Below, one piece after another: positions 6,399 to 20,976 of a DNA stretch of 20,976 bases. The translations under genes and the position numbers were made by a program. This stretch comes from a virus. The stretch is taken from the IMG/VR virus record IMGVR_UViG_3300020578_000509, positions 1 through 20,976 of that record; one strand, written 5' to 3'. A model generated the notes under the pieces. It did not search any database. It saw only the letters and a program-made list of their open reading frames with translations, and had not been told where the DNA came from. Within the stretch, counting starts at the first letter, position 1. Each line of letters opens with the position of its first letter.

Positions 6399-9300
6399 AT
6401 GACATTTAAATGTATTCATATTGCAGATATTCATTTTAGAGGAATGAAAAGACATGATGAATATAGAGAAGTATTTGAAACATTTTTTCTTAAAGCAAGA
6501 GATATATGTCCAGATATAATTTATATTGGTGGCGATATAGTTCATTCAAAAACACAAGGAATTACACCTGAGCTTATTGATATTGTCACTTGGTGGCTAA
6601 ATGAATTAAGCAAAATTGCGCCTGTTCATATGATATTAGGAAACCATGACGGTTTAATACTAAATGATGACAGACAAGATGCGATTTCTCCTATTGTTAA
6701 TGCTATAAATAATAAAAATATTTATTTGTATAAGCAGAGCGGTGTATATCCTCTTAATAATATTAATAAAAAAATTAACTTATGTGTATTTTCATGTTTT
6801 GATGAAAAAGGTTGGGAAAATGTTAAGCCTGTTAAAGATGAAATAAATATTGCACTATATCATGGAGGGGTTTTAGGATCATTAACAGATATTGACTGGG
6901 AAATAGATGGAGAAATAGAATTAGACTTTTTTAAAGGTTATGACTTTGCATTTTTAGGTGATATACATAAATTTCAATATTTAGATGAGCAAAAAAGAAT
7001 AGCATATTCTGGATCAACAATTCAGCAAAATTACGGTGAAGATGAAAATAAAGGATTTCTTCTATGGGAAATAAACTCTAAATATGATTATGTCTCTTCT
7101 TTCCATAAAGTTGAAAATAAATATAAATTTATAAATATAGAGTTTAAGAATACAGTCAAAGACACGATTGAAACTTTAAAAAATAAAATAACTGAAAAAT
7201 CTAGAGTACGTATCATATCAGATGATGTTGTTACAAACAGTGAAATTAATGAATTATCTGCTTACTTAAAAAACAATTATAAAGTTTCTGAGGTTGTTTC
7301 AAAGGTAAATTCTCAAAATATTCAAAACGTCAGTATAAAAAATACAAAATACAATGGTTTTGATATTAATCATCAAGAGTCTAGACTTTCATTAATAGAA
7401 TCGTATTTTAAAAATACTATAACAAAAGAAGAAATATCTAAAATAGACAATTTAATGAGTTATTATCTTTCACAAGTTGCTGAAAACGAAGAGGATGTGA
7501 ACTCTTTTTATTCAAAATGGAAAATTGATTCATTAAAATTTAATAATACATTTGCTTATGGAGAAAATAATTACATTAATTTTAAAAAATTAAATGGATT
7601 AGTAGGTATTTTTGGAAAAAATAGAGCTGGTAAATCTTCTATTGTAGGAACTTTAATGTATGGATTATTTAATTCAACTGATAGAGGTGTAATTAAGAAT
7701 ATAAATATAGTTAATGAAAATAAGAAATCATGTGACGTAGAAATAAAATTAAATATTAATGACAACTATTACTTAATTAAAAGAGAGACAATTAAAAAAT
7801 ATAGCAAAAAAGGAGAGACTACTGCTTCTACAAATCTTGATTTAATTGCAATTGACAAAGATGATAATTTAATAAATCAAAATGACGAGCAGAGAAGAGA
7901 AACAGAAAAAATATTAAAATCATTAATTGGAACTTCTGAAGACTTTTTAATGACTTCATTTGCTTCTCAAGGTAATATAAACTCATTTATTGATGAAAAA
8001 TCAAGCAACAGAAAGTCTATACTCACAAAATTTTTAAATCTTGATATATTCGAGTATCTAGTTAAATACTCAAGAGAAAAATCATCAGAGTTTAAATATA
8101 AGCAAAAAATGTTTAGTGACAAAGACTGGATTTCTCTAATAGAAGAACAAAAATTAAAAATACTTTCTATTAATAATGAAATTAATTTATTAAATAATAA
8201 AATAAATGAATTGATAAATAAAAAGGTTTCTTTAGAAGTCGATTTATCAAATATTAAAAATGAAAATGAAATTTCTTATGAAGAATGTAATGAAAAAATA
8301 AATGAATTAGATCAAAAAATTTCTGCAATAAACCAAAAAATATCTGAAAATATTCAAAAAATAGAATATTCAACAAATAAAATAGATAAAATTAACGACT
8401 TTAAACAAAATTTTGATATAGAAACATTACATAAAGAGAAAAATAGAGTCGATAATTTAACACAAAATTTAAATTCTATTATAAGCACTTTACAAATTAA
8501 AGACTTCACAAAAAGCAAAAACGAAAAGTCTTTAAAAATATTACAAGAAGTTCCTTGTGAAGATAAGTTTACTAATTGCAAATTCATAAAAGAAGCGCAT
8601 GATATTAATCATTCACATAAAGATCTTATAAAAGAGATAGATGATTTAAACAAATCTGCAAATGAAATATTACAAATCTTAGAAGAATTAAAAAAGGAAG
8701 ATATAGAAGAAAAAATAAACAAATATAATAAAATAATTCAAAATGAAAAAGAATTATCTTTTAATATTAAAACAATAGAATTAGAAGTATCAAAACTAAA
8801 CCTTCAGCTAGAAGCATTACAACAATCAAAAAATAAATACGCAGAATTACTACCACAATTATTTAAAAATAAAGATGATAATACTAATATAAATAAAAAT
8901 AAGATTAAATCTGCATTAAAACAAGTTGATTTTGATTTAAGTGATTTAAATTCTATTAATCATAAGCTAATCGGACAGAGAGCTTCATGTGAAACATTAA
9001 TTTTAAATTATGAAAATATTAAGAAAGAGTATAGTGATTTTATAGAAGAATATAAAACATTTCAGCTATTTGAGCAATGTGTATCAAAGAAAGGTATTCC
9101 TACACTTTTAATAGAGACATGTTTACCTGCGATTAACAAAGAATTAACAAGACTATTATCTACTATTACTAATTTTAATGTTGAGTTGCAATTTGATAAT
9201 TCATTAGGATCTTTAGACATTTATATTGTTTATGAAAAGACAAGAAGACTTATTGAATGTTGCAGTGGAATGGAAAAAATGTTTGCTTCTATTGCATTGA

Positions 9301-9536
9301 GAGTCGTATTAATTAACATGTCTAGCATACCAAGATCTGATATATTTATAATTGACGAAGGATTTGGAACTTTAGATGCTACAAACGTAGAATCATGTAT
9401 AAAAATGTTTAATTTGCTAAAAATGTTTTTCAAAACAGTTTTAATTATATCACACGTTGATATAATAAAGGAATCAGTTGATTCATTTATAGAAATAAAC
9501 AATGAAAACGGATTTTCAAATGTCAGAGTTGAATAA
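6399..9536 (+). CDS. Single-chain Mre11-Rad50 (SbcD-SbcC, T4 gp47-gp46) fusion nuclease/ATPase
   Basis: This 1045-residue protein starts at ATG 6399 behind AAAGGA. Residues 1-335 are an Mre11/SbcD metallophosphoesterase: D10-x-H12, G-G-D46, G-N82-H83-D84, H155 and G-D188-x-H190. Residues about 385-550 are the N-terminal lobe of a Rad50/SbcC ATPase, with Walker A G406-K-N-R-A-G-K412-S and Q-loop Q524. A Lys/Glu/Asn-rich coiled coil (about 560-900) carries a hook-like C720-x6-C727. The C-terminal lobe has the signature C-S956-G-M-E, Walker B I-D986-E987, D-loop L-D993 and H1019. T4 encodes these as gp47 (339 residues) and gp46 (560 residues); here one frame carries both with no stop. The role is DNA end resection in recombination-dependent replication and possibly host DNA degradation. 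The 3' end overlaps the next gene. Confidence 0.93.
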   Translation: MTFKCIHIADIHFRGMKRHDEYREVFETFFLKARDICPDIIYIGGDIVHSKTQGITPELIDIVTWWLNELSKIAPVHMILGNHDGLILNDDRQDAISPIVNAINNKNIYLYKQSGVYPLNNINKKINLCVFSCFDEKGWENVKPVKDEINIALYHGGVLGSLTDIDWEIDGEIELDFFKGYDFAFLGDIHKFQYLDEQKRIAYSGSTIQQNYGEDENKGFLLWEINSKYDYVSSFHKVENKYKFINIEFKNTVKDTIETLKNKITEKSRVRIISDDVVTNSEINELSAYLKNNYKVSEVVSKVNSQNIQNVSIKNTKYNGFDINHQESRLSLIESYFKNTITKEEISKIDNLMSYYLSQVAENEEDVNSFYSKWKIDSLKFNNTFAYGENNYINFKKLNGLVGIFGKNRAGKSSIVGTLMYGLFNSTDRGVIKNINIVNENKKSCDVEIKLNINDNYYLIKRETIKKYSKKGETTASTNLDLIAIDKDDNLINQNDEQRRETEKILKSLIGTSEDFLMTSFASQGNINSFIDEKSSNRKSILTKFLNLDIFEYLVKYSREKSSEFKYKQKMFSDKDWISLIEEQKLKILSINNEINLLNNKINELINKKVSLEVDLSNIKNENEISYEECNEKINELDQKISAINQKISENIQKIEYSTNKIDKINDFKQNFDIETLHKEKNRVDNLTQNLNSIISTLQIKDFTKSKNEKSLKILQEVPCEDKFTNCKFIKEAHDINHSHKDLIKEIDDLNKSANEILQILEELKKEDIEEKINKYNKIIQNEKELSFNIKTIELEVSKLNLQLEALQQSKNKYAELLPQLFKNKDDNTNINKNKIKSALKQVDFDLSDLNSINHKLIGQRASCETLILNYENIKKEYSDFIEEYKTFQLFEQCVSKKGIPTLLIETCLPAINKELTRLLSTITNFNVELQFDNSLGSLDIYIVYEKTRRLIECCSGMEKMFASIALRVVLINMSSIPRSDIFIIDEGFGTLDATNVESCIKMFNLLKMFFKTVLIISHVDIIKESVDSFIEINNENGFSNVRVE

Positions 9537-14670: not shown

Positions 14671-15270
14671 ATGCAAAATTTATTAATTACTGAATGGGCT
14701 TCATTTGATTATGATAAATCTGTTATAAAGGAAATGAAAAATATGGGAGGTCCTCTTATGATGAAAGGAATTCTTCAAAAGGCAGAAACATTAAACCAAA
14801 ATGGAAGAGTTTATCCTAGAGTAATCCTTGAAAGAGAAATAAGAAACTATCAAAAATTTATAAAAGAAAATAGAGCGTTAGGAGAATTAGATCATCCAGA
14901 CTCTTCTGTTGTAGAATTAAAAAATGCATCTCATATAATTAGGGAAGCAAGAATGGAAGGCAATATTGTCTATGGAACTGTAGAAATATTAAACACACCA
15001 TCAGGCAAAATATTGCAATCATTAGTAGAAAGCGGAGTAACTTTAGGTATATCTTCAAGAGGCGTTGGTTCTACAAAATCAGACGGTGATTTACAAATAG
15101 TTCAAGACGATTTTCAGCTTATTTGTTGGGATTTCGTTTCAGAACCTAGCACACCTGGTGCATTTATGTTAAAAGAATCAAAACAAATAAATTCTACAAA
15201 TATAAATAAAATATTTAATAAAACTGACAGAATTAATAGAATATTCAATGAAATAACAACTTGGAGATAA
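14671..15270 (+). CDS. Prohead core protease (T4 gp21-like)
   Basis: This 199-residue protein is close to T4 gp21 (212). Family motifs are clear: L-N-Q-N-G-R-V-Y-P after the N-terminal strand, G-E-L-D-H75-P with the catalytic histidine, and L-G-I-S-S129-R-G with the likely nucleophile in the serine pair 128/129. A downstream I-C-W-D154-F-V-S-E-P-S may supply the third residue. This serine protease, related in fold to herpesvirus assemblin, sits inside the prohead and cleaves scaffold, capsid and internal proteins after [L/I]-x-E. ATG 14671 has AGGTG five bases upstream. A second ribosome-site-like GGGAGG lies at 14745-14750 before in-frame ATGs at 14758 and 14761 (M30, M31), so a shorter form is possible. 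The C-terminal 30 residues are Asn/Ile-rich and may be trimmed. Confidence 0.9.
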   Translation: MQNLLITEWASFDYDKSVIKEMKNMGGPLMMKGILQKAETLNQNGRVYPRVILEREIRNYQKFIKENRALGELDHPDSSVVELKNASHIIREARMEGNIVYGTVEILNTPSGKILQSLVESGVTLGISSRGVGSTKSDGDLQIVQDDFQLICWDFVSEPSTPGAFMLKESKQINSTNINKIFNKTDRINRIFNEITTWR

Positions 15271-16116: not shown

Positions 16117-16392
16117 ATGAAAAATTTTACAATAACCGAAAATGAATTAAGACTTTTAATTAATAAGCAAAACGAATTAATAAAAGAGACACTTGAAGTT
16201 AATGCTAAACATCCAAAAGATGTTGCAAAAAGCACAAAACAAATAAATGCAAATGAATATTCAAAAACATTAGCACAATTAATAAACTATTATAAAAAAT
16301 GCTGTTTAAAAGAAGAAACATTAAAAAAAGAACTTCTTAAATTACAAGAAGTTAAAAAAGAAATTAGTAATAAATTAATGAATAATATTTAA
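16117..16392 (+). CDS. Small coiled-coil hypothetical protein
   Basis: This 91-residue protein has a near-perfect ribosome site (AAGGAG at about 16103-16108) before ATG 16117. It is almost wholly helical and Lys/Glu/Asn/Leu-rich. Two predicted helices are separated by a turn near A-K-H-P-K-D-V-A. The second half (K-E-E-T-L-K-K-E-L-L-K-L-Q-E-V-K-K-E) has heptad-like leucine spacing, so it probably forms a coiled coil and oligomerises. No known motif is visible. The size and charge recall small prohead-core or chaperone proteins, but that is only a contextual guess. Confidence 0.7.
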   Translation: MKNFTITENELRLLINKQNELIKETLEVNAKHPKDVAKSTKQINANEYSKTLAQLINYYKKCCLKEETLKKELLKLQEVKKEISNKLMNNI

Positions 16393-18473: not shown

Positions 18474-20159
18474 ATGTCAATTAGTATATACCAAGAAGCA
18501 TTAAATGATGCTAAATTAATAAAAGAATCTGCTGAAGACAAAGTTAAAGAAAAATTAATTGAAAAATTATCTCCTCAAATAAAAAAGCTGATAGAAGCAT
18601 CTTTTAATGAAAAAGAAGACGCTGATGAGGATATGGAAAACGAATCTGATAATTCTTCATATTCACGCAAAAAGGACGAAGGTTGCAGTGACATGTATGA
18701 ATCAGAAGACGTAGATGAAGGTTGTCATGAAGTAGACGAGTCAGAAGACGTAGATGAAGATTGCAGCGACATGTACGAATCAGAAGACGTAGATGAAGAT
18801 TGCAGCGACATGTACGAATCTTCTAGAAAAAATATTACTCCATTTAAAAAAATTGAAAAAAATGTATTATTTGAAACAGACAAAGAAACAAATTCTTTTA
18901 TAAAAAAATTAATCAATAAAAATCCAATAAAAGAAAATTTTTATAAGAATTTTAATAAATTTAATACTTTTTTAAAGAAAAATTCTGAATTAAGTAATAT
19001 AGATAATGTAACATTAAATGAAATAAATGATAGTTTAGATAATTTTTATAAAGAAATAAAATTATTTGAAAATAATAGTATAATTATTAAAGATAAAATA
19101 CTATTAAAAGATTTTTTAATATTCAAAAAGGAGATAGACAATATGTCAAGAAGAGTTTTTAAAGAAGCAAATTCAAGAAATAAAAAATTATTTGAAATGT
19201 ATCTTCAAGAAAAAGAAGAAGACAGCGAAAAAGAAGAAGACGAGCTTGATCTAAGCTTTTTAGATGACGATAAAAGCGATATGGGTAAAGATGAAGATGA
19301 AGATCAAGAAGTTGACTTTGATAGCGACGAAGAATCAGAAGATGAAGACTATGGAATGACAGATTCTAGCTCTTTAGGTGATATAGCTGATGATTTAAGT
19401 GATATTTCCAGCAAAATTCGTGATATGATACAGGACGAACAAGAGGAAGAAGAGGAAGATGAAGAGGAAGATGAAGAGGAAGAGGAAGATGAAGATGAAG
19501 AGGAAGGTGAGGAGATGGAAGAAGGATATGGCATGAAGGAAAATGCAAGAAGAAGAAATCGTATGCTGCAAATTGATGAAAACATGCTTAAAAGAGAAAT
19601 AAGCAAAATGAGAAAACTGAAAGAGGGAGAAGCTAAGTCTATGGCTCATCATTTTGGTGGTGGCAAATTAGGCAAAGAAATGTTTGTTGATGTTGATGAT
19701 AGGCTTTTAAATGCATACGCCGATGAGCTAGGCGATGCGCCTCGTCCAAAAGTTGAAGCTGCAATGAGAAATGAGCGTCGTAAAAATCGTATGCTTGAAA
19801 ACAGACTTCAGGAATATAAATCAGCATTAAAAGGAATGAAAGAACAACTTTCAGAAATGAATTTGTTTAATGCAAAACTACTTTATGCAAACAAACTTAT
19901 GCAAAATAAAGATTTATCTTTAAGCCAACAAAAACAAATAGTCGAATCACTAGACAGCGCAAAAACTTTAAATGAAGCTAAACTTTTATTTGAAAGTCTC
20001 TCTAAGAGCTTAATCAAGACCACTAGAAGTGGTAATCAAATGAATGAAAATAGAAGAGTTTTAAGTTCTTCTTCTAGAACAGTTACAAGCTCTCAGTCTG
20101 CTGGAACTCAATCTGCTGATTTAAGCCGTTGGGCTTTATTAGCAGGCATCAAAAAATAA
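18474..20159 (+). CDS. Prohead scaffold/core protein (T4 gp22-like), long acidic form
   Basis: This 561-residue protein, about twice T4 gp22 (269), lies directly before the capsid gene as gp22 does in T4. The N-terminus is a helix (I-Y-Q-E-A-L-N-D-A-K-L-I-K-E). Then come a 13-residue tandem repeat (about residues 70-116), a Lys/Asn-rich middle, a highly acidic region (about 240-350) and a basic helical part. The C-terminal helix F-N-A-K-L-L-Y-A-N-K-L-M and K-T-L-N-E-A-K-L-L-F-E-S-L match the gp22-type scaffold as I know it. The tail ends L-S-R-W553-A-L-L-A-G. It should assemble inside the prohead, template the shell and be destroyed by the protease; L39-I-E41 before A42 is a possible cleavage site. 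The upstream ribosome site (ACGAGAAA) is mediocre, whereas a strong internal one precedes in-frame M224. Confidence 0.85.
   Translation: MSISIYQEALNDAKLIKESAEDKVKEKLIEKLSPQIKKLIEASFNEKEDADEDMENESDNSSYSRKKDEGCSDMYESEDVDEGCHEVDESEDVDEDCSDMYESEDVDEDCSDMYESSRKNITPFKKIEKNVLFETDKETNSFIKKLINKNPIKENFYKNFNKFNTFLKKNSELSNIDNVTLNEINDSLDNFYKEIKLFENNSIIIKDKILLKDFLIFKKEIDNMSRRVFKEANSRNKKLFEMYLQEKEEDSEKEEDELDLSFLDDDKSDMGKDEDEDQEVDFDSDEESEDEDYGMTDSSSLGDIADDLSDISSKIRDMIQDEQEEEEEDEEEDEEEEEDEDEEEGEEMEEGYGMKENARRRNRMLQIDENMLKREISKMRKLKEGEAKSMAHHFGGGKLGKEMFVDVDDRLLNAYADELGDAPRPKVEAAMRNERRKNRMLENRLQEYKSALKGMKEQLSEMNLFNAKLLYANKLMQNKDLSLSQQKQIVESLDSAKTLNEAKLLFESLSKSLIKTTRSGNQMNENRRVLSSSSRTVTSSQSAGTQSADLSRWALLAGIKK
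18681..18820 (+). repeat. 39-bp in-frame tandem repeat, about 3.6 copies
   Basis: Copies lie at 18681-18719, 18720-18758, 18759-18797 and 18798-18820 (partial). Each full unit encodes 13 residues of the form [G/D]-C-S-D-M-Y-E-S-E-D-V-D-E. The second copy has diverged (C-H-E-V-D-E-S). The third and the partial fourth copies are identical over their shared 23 bases, which points to recent duplication. Confidence 0.92.
19128..19145 (+). promoter_or_regulatory. Strong internal ribosome-binding site with in-frame ATG in scaffold gene
   Basis: AAGGAG at 19128-19133 lies nine bases before ATG 19143. The ATG is in frame with the scaffold gene (M224) and would give a 338-residue short form. The site is stronger than the one before the gene's first ATG at 18474 and equals that of the gene at 16117. 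The purine run encodes K-K-E, so coincidence with coding is possible. Confidence 0.5.
19437..19525 (+). repeat. GAA/GAG/GAT purine-rich low-complexity tract
   Basis: This tract encodes about 29 consecutive codons, nearly all Glu or Asp (scaffold residues about 322-350). It is an irregular mixture of GAG, GAA and GAT codons. The purine bias is extreme on the + strand, and the complementary strand gives false Ser-rich reading frames. Confidence 0.85.
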
Positions 20160-20208: not shown

Positions 20209-20976
20209 ATGTCATTTAACTTAAAAACATTAACAGAAGGTATCAAACAGAGAAACGTTGGTTCTCAAAACAAAAGACTTGTAGAAAAATGGTCAAGAAC
20301 TGGTCTTCTTAGAGGACTTGAAGACACCCATAGAGAAAATATGGCTACATTATTAGAGAACCAAGCTTCACAGTTACTCAGAGAAGCAAATACATTAGGC
20401 GGAGCACAAGGTACTTCTTCTGACATCAGAGGATTTACAAATATCGCTTTCCCAATTGTTCGTAGAGTATTCGGCGGACTTGTTGCAAATGAATTAGTAT
20501 CAATTCAGCCAATGAGTCTTCCTTCAGGCCTTCTATTCTATTTAGATTATACATATGGCTCTGACGTCGGTGGCGATGCAGATGGTTCTTCACCTACATA
20601 CAAAGCAGGAGAATCTATTTATCACCAACCCACAGGTAAACAAGTCAGAAACGGCTCGTTTGCTACAGGCGGTCAATTCGATTTAACAGGATCAGGTTTC
20701 ACAAAAGTTCATGAGAAAGTTACACTTACAGCATTAGCAACAGGAAGCAAAGTTGTTTCAGTAGGCCAATTAGATGTAACAGATGCAGATCATCTTAAAT
20801 TGGTTCAGTTTGATCAACAAGTTATTGATGCAGCAGAAACATCTACATTTCATCTTCTCGCAGTAAAACTTGCAGAATTAGTTGATGTAGATGACACACA
20901 ATTAAAAGATGTTTCTGTAGCAAAATCTTTGTCTGCTGCTGCTAATGCTGCTGAATTAACAAGACAAATTGAAGAT
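20209..20976 (+). CDS. Major capsid protein (T4 gp23-like), 3'-truncated by window edge
   Basis: ATG 20209 follows AAAGGA. The frame stays open for 256 codons to the last base of the window, so the C-terminal half is missing (T4 gp23 has 521 residues). The N-terminal propeptide (about 1-59) has a W-S-R-T-G-L-L helix region. The mature part contains I-V-R-R-V-F and S-I-Q100-P-M-S-L-P-S-G-L-L-F, which align by eye with gp23 M-V-R-R-A-I and G-V-Q-P-M-N-S-P-T-G-Q-V-F. L57-R-E59 before A60 aligns with the gp23 maturation site L-T-E before A. It forms the hexamers of the head shell. By eye, its codons are visibly less AT-biased than those of its neighbours, as expected for the most abundant phage protein. 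Confidence 0.95.
   Translation, partial: MSFNLKTLTEGIKQRNVGSQNKRLVEKWSRTGLLRGLEDTHRENMATLLENQASQLLREANTLGGAQGTSSDIRGFTNIAFPIVRRVFGGLVANELVSIQPMSLPSGLLFYLDYTYGSDVGGDADGSSPTYKAGESIYHQPTGKQVRNGSFATGGQFDLTGSGFTKVHEKVTLTALATGSKVVSVGQLDVTDADHLKLVQFDQQVIDAAETSTFHLLAVKLAELVDVDDTQLKDVSVAKSLSAAANAAELTRQIED
20377..20388 (+). other. Predicted prohead-protease cleavage site in capsid protein
   Basis: These codons encode L57-R-E59-A60. The [L/I]-x-E before Ala matches the known gp21 cleavage rule, and it aligns with the T4 gp23 site (after E65) at the same distance from the downstream V-R-R and Q-P-M motifs. Cleavage would remove a 59-residue propeptide. Confidence 0.6.

Follow-up and report, generated by a model that had tools for sequence, protein, structure and literature searches.

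We conclude that the open reading frame (ORF) immediately 5' of the major capsid gene in this virus is, with a probability of roughly 0.9, a dual-product gene that encodes a 561-residue putative prohead core or scaffold protein and, from an in-frame internal start, a 338-residue short form of it. Comparison of related sequences indicates that the internal site is selected as a translation start and that the long frame is maintained alongside it. The DNA studied, here called the window, comprises positions 1 to 20,976 (one strand) of the IMG/VR viral record IMGVR_UViG_3300020578_000509.

A T4-type head module lies at the 3' end of the window and runs off it. The module includes a terminase gene (from 10143), a gp20-type portal gene (from 11770), a stand-alone gp21-type prohead protease gene (14671 to 15270, + strand; Pfam PF03420 Peptidase_S77, E 3.9e-28; phrog_207), several unassigned genes, the 561-residue ORF (18474 to 20159, + strand), and a gp23-type major capsid gene (20209 to 20976, + strand; Pfam PF07068 Gp23, E 6.5e-12; phrog_138) that continues past the window end. 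Farther upstream, a single 1,045-residue ORF (6399 to 9536, + strand) carries both a nuclease domain of the calcineurin type (PF00149, residues 4 to 191) and an SMC/Rad50-like ATPase domain (PF13476, residues 378 to 608, a match slightly below the cut-off), and its domain content marks it as a predicted fused gp47-gp46 (Mre11-Rad50) protein. In T4, gp47 and gp46 are two separate proteins.

The 561-residue ORF has no match in Pfam or PHROG, nor do its residues 1 to 223 match any family in these collections. No sequence homology to T4 gp22 was detected (hhalign probability 0.2%, with a single T4 gp22 sequence compared), and profile comparison with T4 gp22, gp67, gp68, and P-HM2 gp22 revealed no similarity. 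We infer a scaffold function because the ORF sits between the gp21-type protease and gp23-type capsid genes, as gp22 does in T4, because its make-up is helical and acidic like that of gp22, and because the arrangement is conserved, the ORF being likewise upstream of the capsid gene at the relatives' loci. T4 gp22 differs in having only 269 residues and a single start.

The structure model of the long form (mean pLDDT 61) consists of elongated helices and disordered acidic linkers, with no globular domain. Exclusive to the long form are a conserved N-terminal helix of about 50 residues (18474 to 18623, + strand; predicted over residues 2 to 53 with pLDDT 70 to 93; M1, A9, A13, E21, and P34 invariant in 52 sequences), a 39-bp tandem repeat that codes for acidic linker (18678 to 18820, + strand; 3.7 copies by Tandem Repeats Finder), and a middle helical region. 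The sequence-only reading was right that the short form would drop the repeat and the N-terminal helix, as both lie upstream of the internal start. Common to both forms is a C-terminal helical domain (19746 to 20156, + strand) containing the EMNLFNAKLLYANKLMQN motif, an invariant block in 52 sequences. It is the best modeled and best conserved part of the protein (pLDDT 90 to 96 across residues 431 to 510), and it is also found in Flavobacterium phage immuto. Fold searches with the scaffold model returned no useful PDB match and, in BFVD, only uncharacterized phage proteins. No T4-type late promoter (TATAAATA) was found within or just 5' of the gene. The N-terminal helix closes with L/I/M-X-E (18600 to 18623 in the window) in 43 of 53 relatives, compared with a background of 49%, which is suggestive only of a candidate gp21-type cleavage site that might release the helix during maturation. 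The conserved Glu246 was also considered as a protease site; it looked promising in one alignment and was not upheld in another.

The internal site (19128 to 19145) reads AAGGAG-ATAGACAAT-ATG. Its Shine-Dalgarno (SD) sequence AAGGAG (19128 to 19133, + strand) is formed by the codons AAG GAG for K219 and E220 and is separated by a 9-nt spacer from ATG 19143, which is Met224 of the long form, lies in frame with 18474 to 20159, and would open the 338-residue short form (19143 to 20159, + strand). All of this agrees with what had been read from the letters alone. The accompanying claim that this is among the best ribosome sites in the window can be put more strongly, as its anti-SD duplex energy of -8.0 kcal/mol is the lowest among the 18 gene starts scored there; the runner-up, at 16117, has -7.2, and the scaffold gene's own start at 18474 has -3.0. 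A very strong SD (GGGAGG, -10.9) also occurs closely 5' of ATG codons 30 and 31 of the gp21-type protease gene (14740 to 14763, + strand). Although T4 gene 21 has an internal start, relatives of the window's gene carry this site only in weak form or lack it, and it may therefore simply reflect Gly-Gly codons.

Could the SD-like sequence of the internal site have arisen by chance, given that the scaffold gene is rich in AT and codes for much Lys and Glu? The window alone gives this some room, as AAGGAG followed by ATG after 5 to 10 nt occurs three times against 0.8 expected, with at least three occurrences in 6% of shuffles, so that its occurrence is only mildly unexpected. It is conservation that decides, and conservation is very strong. 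Searching IMG/VR with scaffold and capsid queries yielded 69 complete ORFs, 53 of them nonredundant, with a median pairwise identity of 36% and 28 clusters at 60% identity (a scan of genome contigs gave no relatives). At the corresponding place, 52 of the 53 relatives have an in-frame ATG with GGAG or GAGG 5 to 9 nt upstream. By protein alignment alone, 43 to 44 of the 53 have Met at the Met224 column, where their SD energies average -7.8 and do not exceed -6.9 in 98%; at other conserved-Met columns of the scaffold, gp23, and gp21 genes, a strong SD occurs in at most 12%. For 9 of the 53, the protein alignment placed no Met there, and the site was therefore chosen manually, in most cases on SD strength; eight of these nine relatives have a GGAG or GAGG close by, together with an ATG in frame. 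Across the 53 relatives, the mean SD energy is -7.5 at the internal site versus -1.9 at 726 other in-frame ATGs, and an energy of -6.9 is reached by 91% of the former versus 3.4% of the latter. A later scan turned up more relatives that have the site, including forms with E-E (L120 to L122) and Q-E (L118, L119, and L123) in place of Lys-Glu.

The nucleotides of the site are kept beyond what coding needs, the property to which the sequence-only reading had pointed as a check on its proposal. Lys-Glu at the internal site is written AAG GAG in 35 of 35 cases; elsewhere in the same genes, AAGGAG accounts for only 17 of 165 Lys-Glu pairs. At the alignment columns of the site, Lys is AAG in 36 of 37 sequences and Glu is GAG in 46 of 48, a GAG share of 96% compared with about 18 to 72% at other conserved Glu columns, and most conserved columns of the relatives' alignment show well-mixed synonymous positions. 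The ATG is conserved, and the GGAG/GAGG core persists where the encoded residues are different (QE in 7, GD in 4, and ED in 2, as well as EE, ME, GV, and GA). The altered stretches read Q-E, E-E, M-E, S-G-D, K-G-A, or H-G-V, two codon registers are in use, and the spacer measures 5, 6, 8, or 9 nt. Retention of the core across varied residues, registers, and spacers tells a nucleotide signal apart from a peptide motif. The contrary possibility is that K-E-x-x-N-M-S matters as peptide, for instance as a binding turn or as a site cut by the prohead protease, and that its codons create the SD incidentally. This view can appeal to the occurrence of Lys-Glu ahead of Met in 35 of 53 relatives, to the invariance of M224 and E220 in the first 13 sequences aligned, and to the fact that T4 gp21 cuts after L/I-X-E (PMC9026906). 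We consider it very unlikely, given the invariable use of AAG GAG (10% elsewhere), the shifts of residues and register over constant nucleotides at spacers of 5 to 9 nt, and the lack of a consistent L/I-X-E immediately before the Met.

When sequences are recoded synonymously one at a time, the site reaches p < 0.05 in only 12 of 53 (median p, 0.13). These individual values are modest, and the force of the case comes from conservation across sequences. They are the other point in favor of a chance origin, which is nevertheless scarcely credible for a site held at one position over 53 divergent relatives with fixation at the codon level.

The internal site shares other features with translation starts. 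Among 12 close pairs, pS falls from 0.64 in the middle region upstream to 0.38 in the last six codons before the internal start and 0.28 in the first twelve codons past it, and it is 0.54 farther on. Local mRNA folding at the start is weak (MFE, -6.1 versus -11.2 kcal/mol), and the stretch from -15 to +6 is more open (0.515 versus 0.439; Mann-Whitney p, 7e-7). The residue following the internal Met looks start-like, being Ser in 30 of the 53 relatives, Thr in 5, Asn in 5, Ala in 3, Gln in 3, and Pro in 2 (48 of 53 together), whereas the residues after other Mets are rich in Asp, Leu, and Glu. SD-like sequences within genes have been proposed to slow ribosomes, and the site might accordingly be a programmed pause or a translation-coupling element with no true start. 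A pause, however, requires neither an ATG at 5 to 9 nt nor a start-like second residue nor low structure, all of which are conserved, and we regard this explanation as highly improbable.

The long frame is also kept. All 69 complete ORFs begin at the N-terminal domain, with no stop or frameshift ahead of the internal start, and none is short-only; nor did any of the 69 prove to be a split gene with the short form encoded separately. In close pairs, the pN/pS of the N-terminal 50 residues is 0.08, the lowest in the gene. From the absence of short-only ORFs and the constraint on these 50 residues, it follows that selection keeps both read-through and restart. The alternative that the short form is the only product made and the only one that functions, with the upstream extension nonfunctional or part of a separate product, gains something from the often weaker SD of the upstream start (-3.0 versus -8.0 in the window). 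Even so, it has only a very small probability in view of the invariant positions and low pN/pS of the N-terminal residues and the full length of every complete ORF.

Exceptions to the pattern occur. One lineage (L050 and L111 to L117) is without an SD at the homologous Met. About 30 codons downstream, it has a weaker candidate start (-6.4) at KSGDN|MDAID (tctggagataa-ATG), and its sequences raise the possibility of turnover of the internal start. L043 and L053 have a weaker GAGG site (-5.9). The more distant relatives Flavobacterium phage immuto, Microcystis phage Mel-JY01, and L140 to L146, whose scaffold genes encode a similar N-terminal helix and the C-terminal domain, show no clear counterpart of the internal site. 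Both immuto gp067 (413 residues) and Mel-JY01 WWT39314 (366 residues) lie directly upstream of a gp23-type capsid gene and have an N-terminal helix like that of the window ORF; gp067 has the C-terminal domain in common with it (hhalign 99.6%), and WWT39314 gives a tblastn match (E 6e-9). Both are shorter than the window ORF. In L103 and L140 to L146, which are near immuto, no SD precedes the genes' own starts (energies close to or above 0), as would fit hosts whose translation does not depend on SD sequences. The immuto scaffold gene likewise has no SD at its own start, and for this reason an SD-independent internal start could still exist in immuto and L140 to L146. The internal site is absent from T4 gp22 and from the scaffold genes of cyanophage, Campylobacter, and Xanthomonas phages (P-HM2, CP220, and XacN1). 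Being missing from these and without a clear counterpart in the more distant relatives, it is a feature of one broad clade, and the group that carries it is a broad set of uncultured T4-related phages.

Phage lambda, whose scaffold Nu3 is made from an internal start, had been offered as the precedent. It serves as an analogy insofar as Nu3 corresponds, in frame, to the C-terminal portion of what a longer gene encodes. Lambda has one gene for both protease and scaffold, as stated in the part of PMC8508860 that cites Shaw and Murialdo (1980). The comparison fails at this point, as the upstream part of the lambda gene is the protease, whereas that of the window ORF is helix and acidic linker and the protease is the separate gene at 14671 to 15270; the window ORF is thus not a protease-scaffold gene of the lambda type. 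The herpesvirus proteins UL26 and UL26.5 have a common C-terminus, the short form arising from its own transcript. Both are listed in PMC12474303, and they resemble the present case in pairing a long minor scaffold with a short bulk one, but the separate transcript, the eukaryotic virus, and the protease in the long form are unlike the window ORF. T4 gene 21, to which the sequence-only reading did not refer, is a closer precedent than lambda. It has a second, internal in-frame start (Met45) that gives rise to the essential short gp21s, according to the passage of PMC9026906 citing Hintermann and Kuhn (1992), and RefSeq annotates internal starts for T4 genes 17 and 21. Like the window ORF, gene 21 is a T4-type head gene with an internal in-frame start and a shorter product, in its case beside the scaffold gene; the difference is that the dual-start gene is the protease in T4 and the scaffold here. 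T4 gp22, gp67, and gp68 have no strong internal SD-ATG. In the open-license literature, we found no paper on a dual-start scaffold in this phage group. The mechanism is of a familiar kind; what is new is its place, a stand-alone scaffold gene that is not fused to a protease.

Under the dual-product reading, ribosomes initiating at 18474 would make the 561-residue long form, and those binding AAGGAG 19128 would begin in the same frame at ATG 19143, yielding the 338-residue short form. Of the 53 relatives, 44 have a stronger SD at the internal site than at the start of the gene itself, which suggests that the short form is in excess. The short form would most likely be the bulk internal scaffold and the long form a scarcer variant, whose N-terminal helix may add one contact, for example with the portal or another initiator component; a single gene would thereby supply both roles at a fixed ratio. 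Both forms could join the same core, as the C-terminal domain is common to them. Counting against this reading, ribosomes on the long frame can occlude the internal site, and a predicted helix (residues 208 to 250) spans Met224, so that in the model the start does not coincide with a clean boundary between domains. The tuning of head size by the ratio of the two forms, as put forward in the sequence-only reading, is possible but unsupported and speculative. We likewise hold as doubtful the broader proposal of a clade-wide dual-start scaffold whose long form is rare and contacts the portal or a membrane through its N-terminal helix, whose short form is abundant, and in which the ratio of long to short, set by two ribosome sites of unequal strength, governs the nucleation or size of large T4-type heads.

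Gene callers give one scaffold protein for this locus, whereas the data point to two. If so, models of head assembly would change for a large group of phages of the gp23 type, most of them uncultured, and a stand-alone scaffold gene would join the T4-type head genes with nested starts, of which T4 gene 21 was already known. The conserved start also lends itself to a simple synonymous alteration of AAGGAG by which to ask whether the ratio of the isoforms matters for head assembly.
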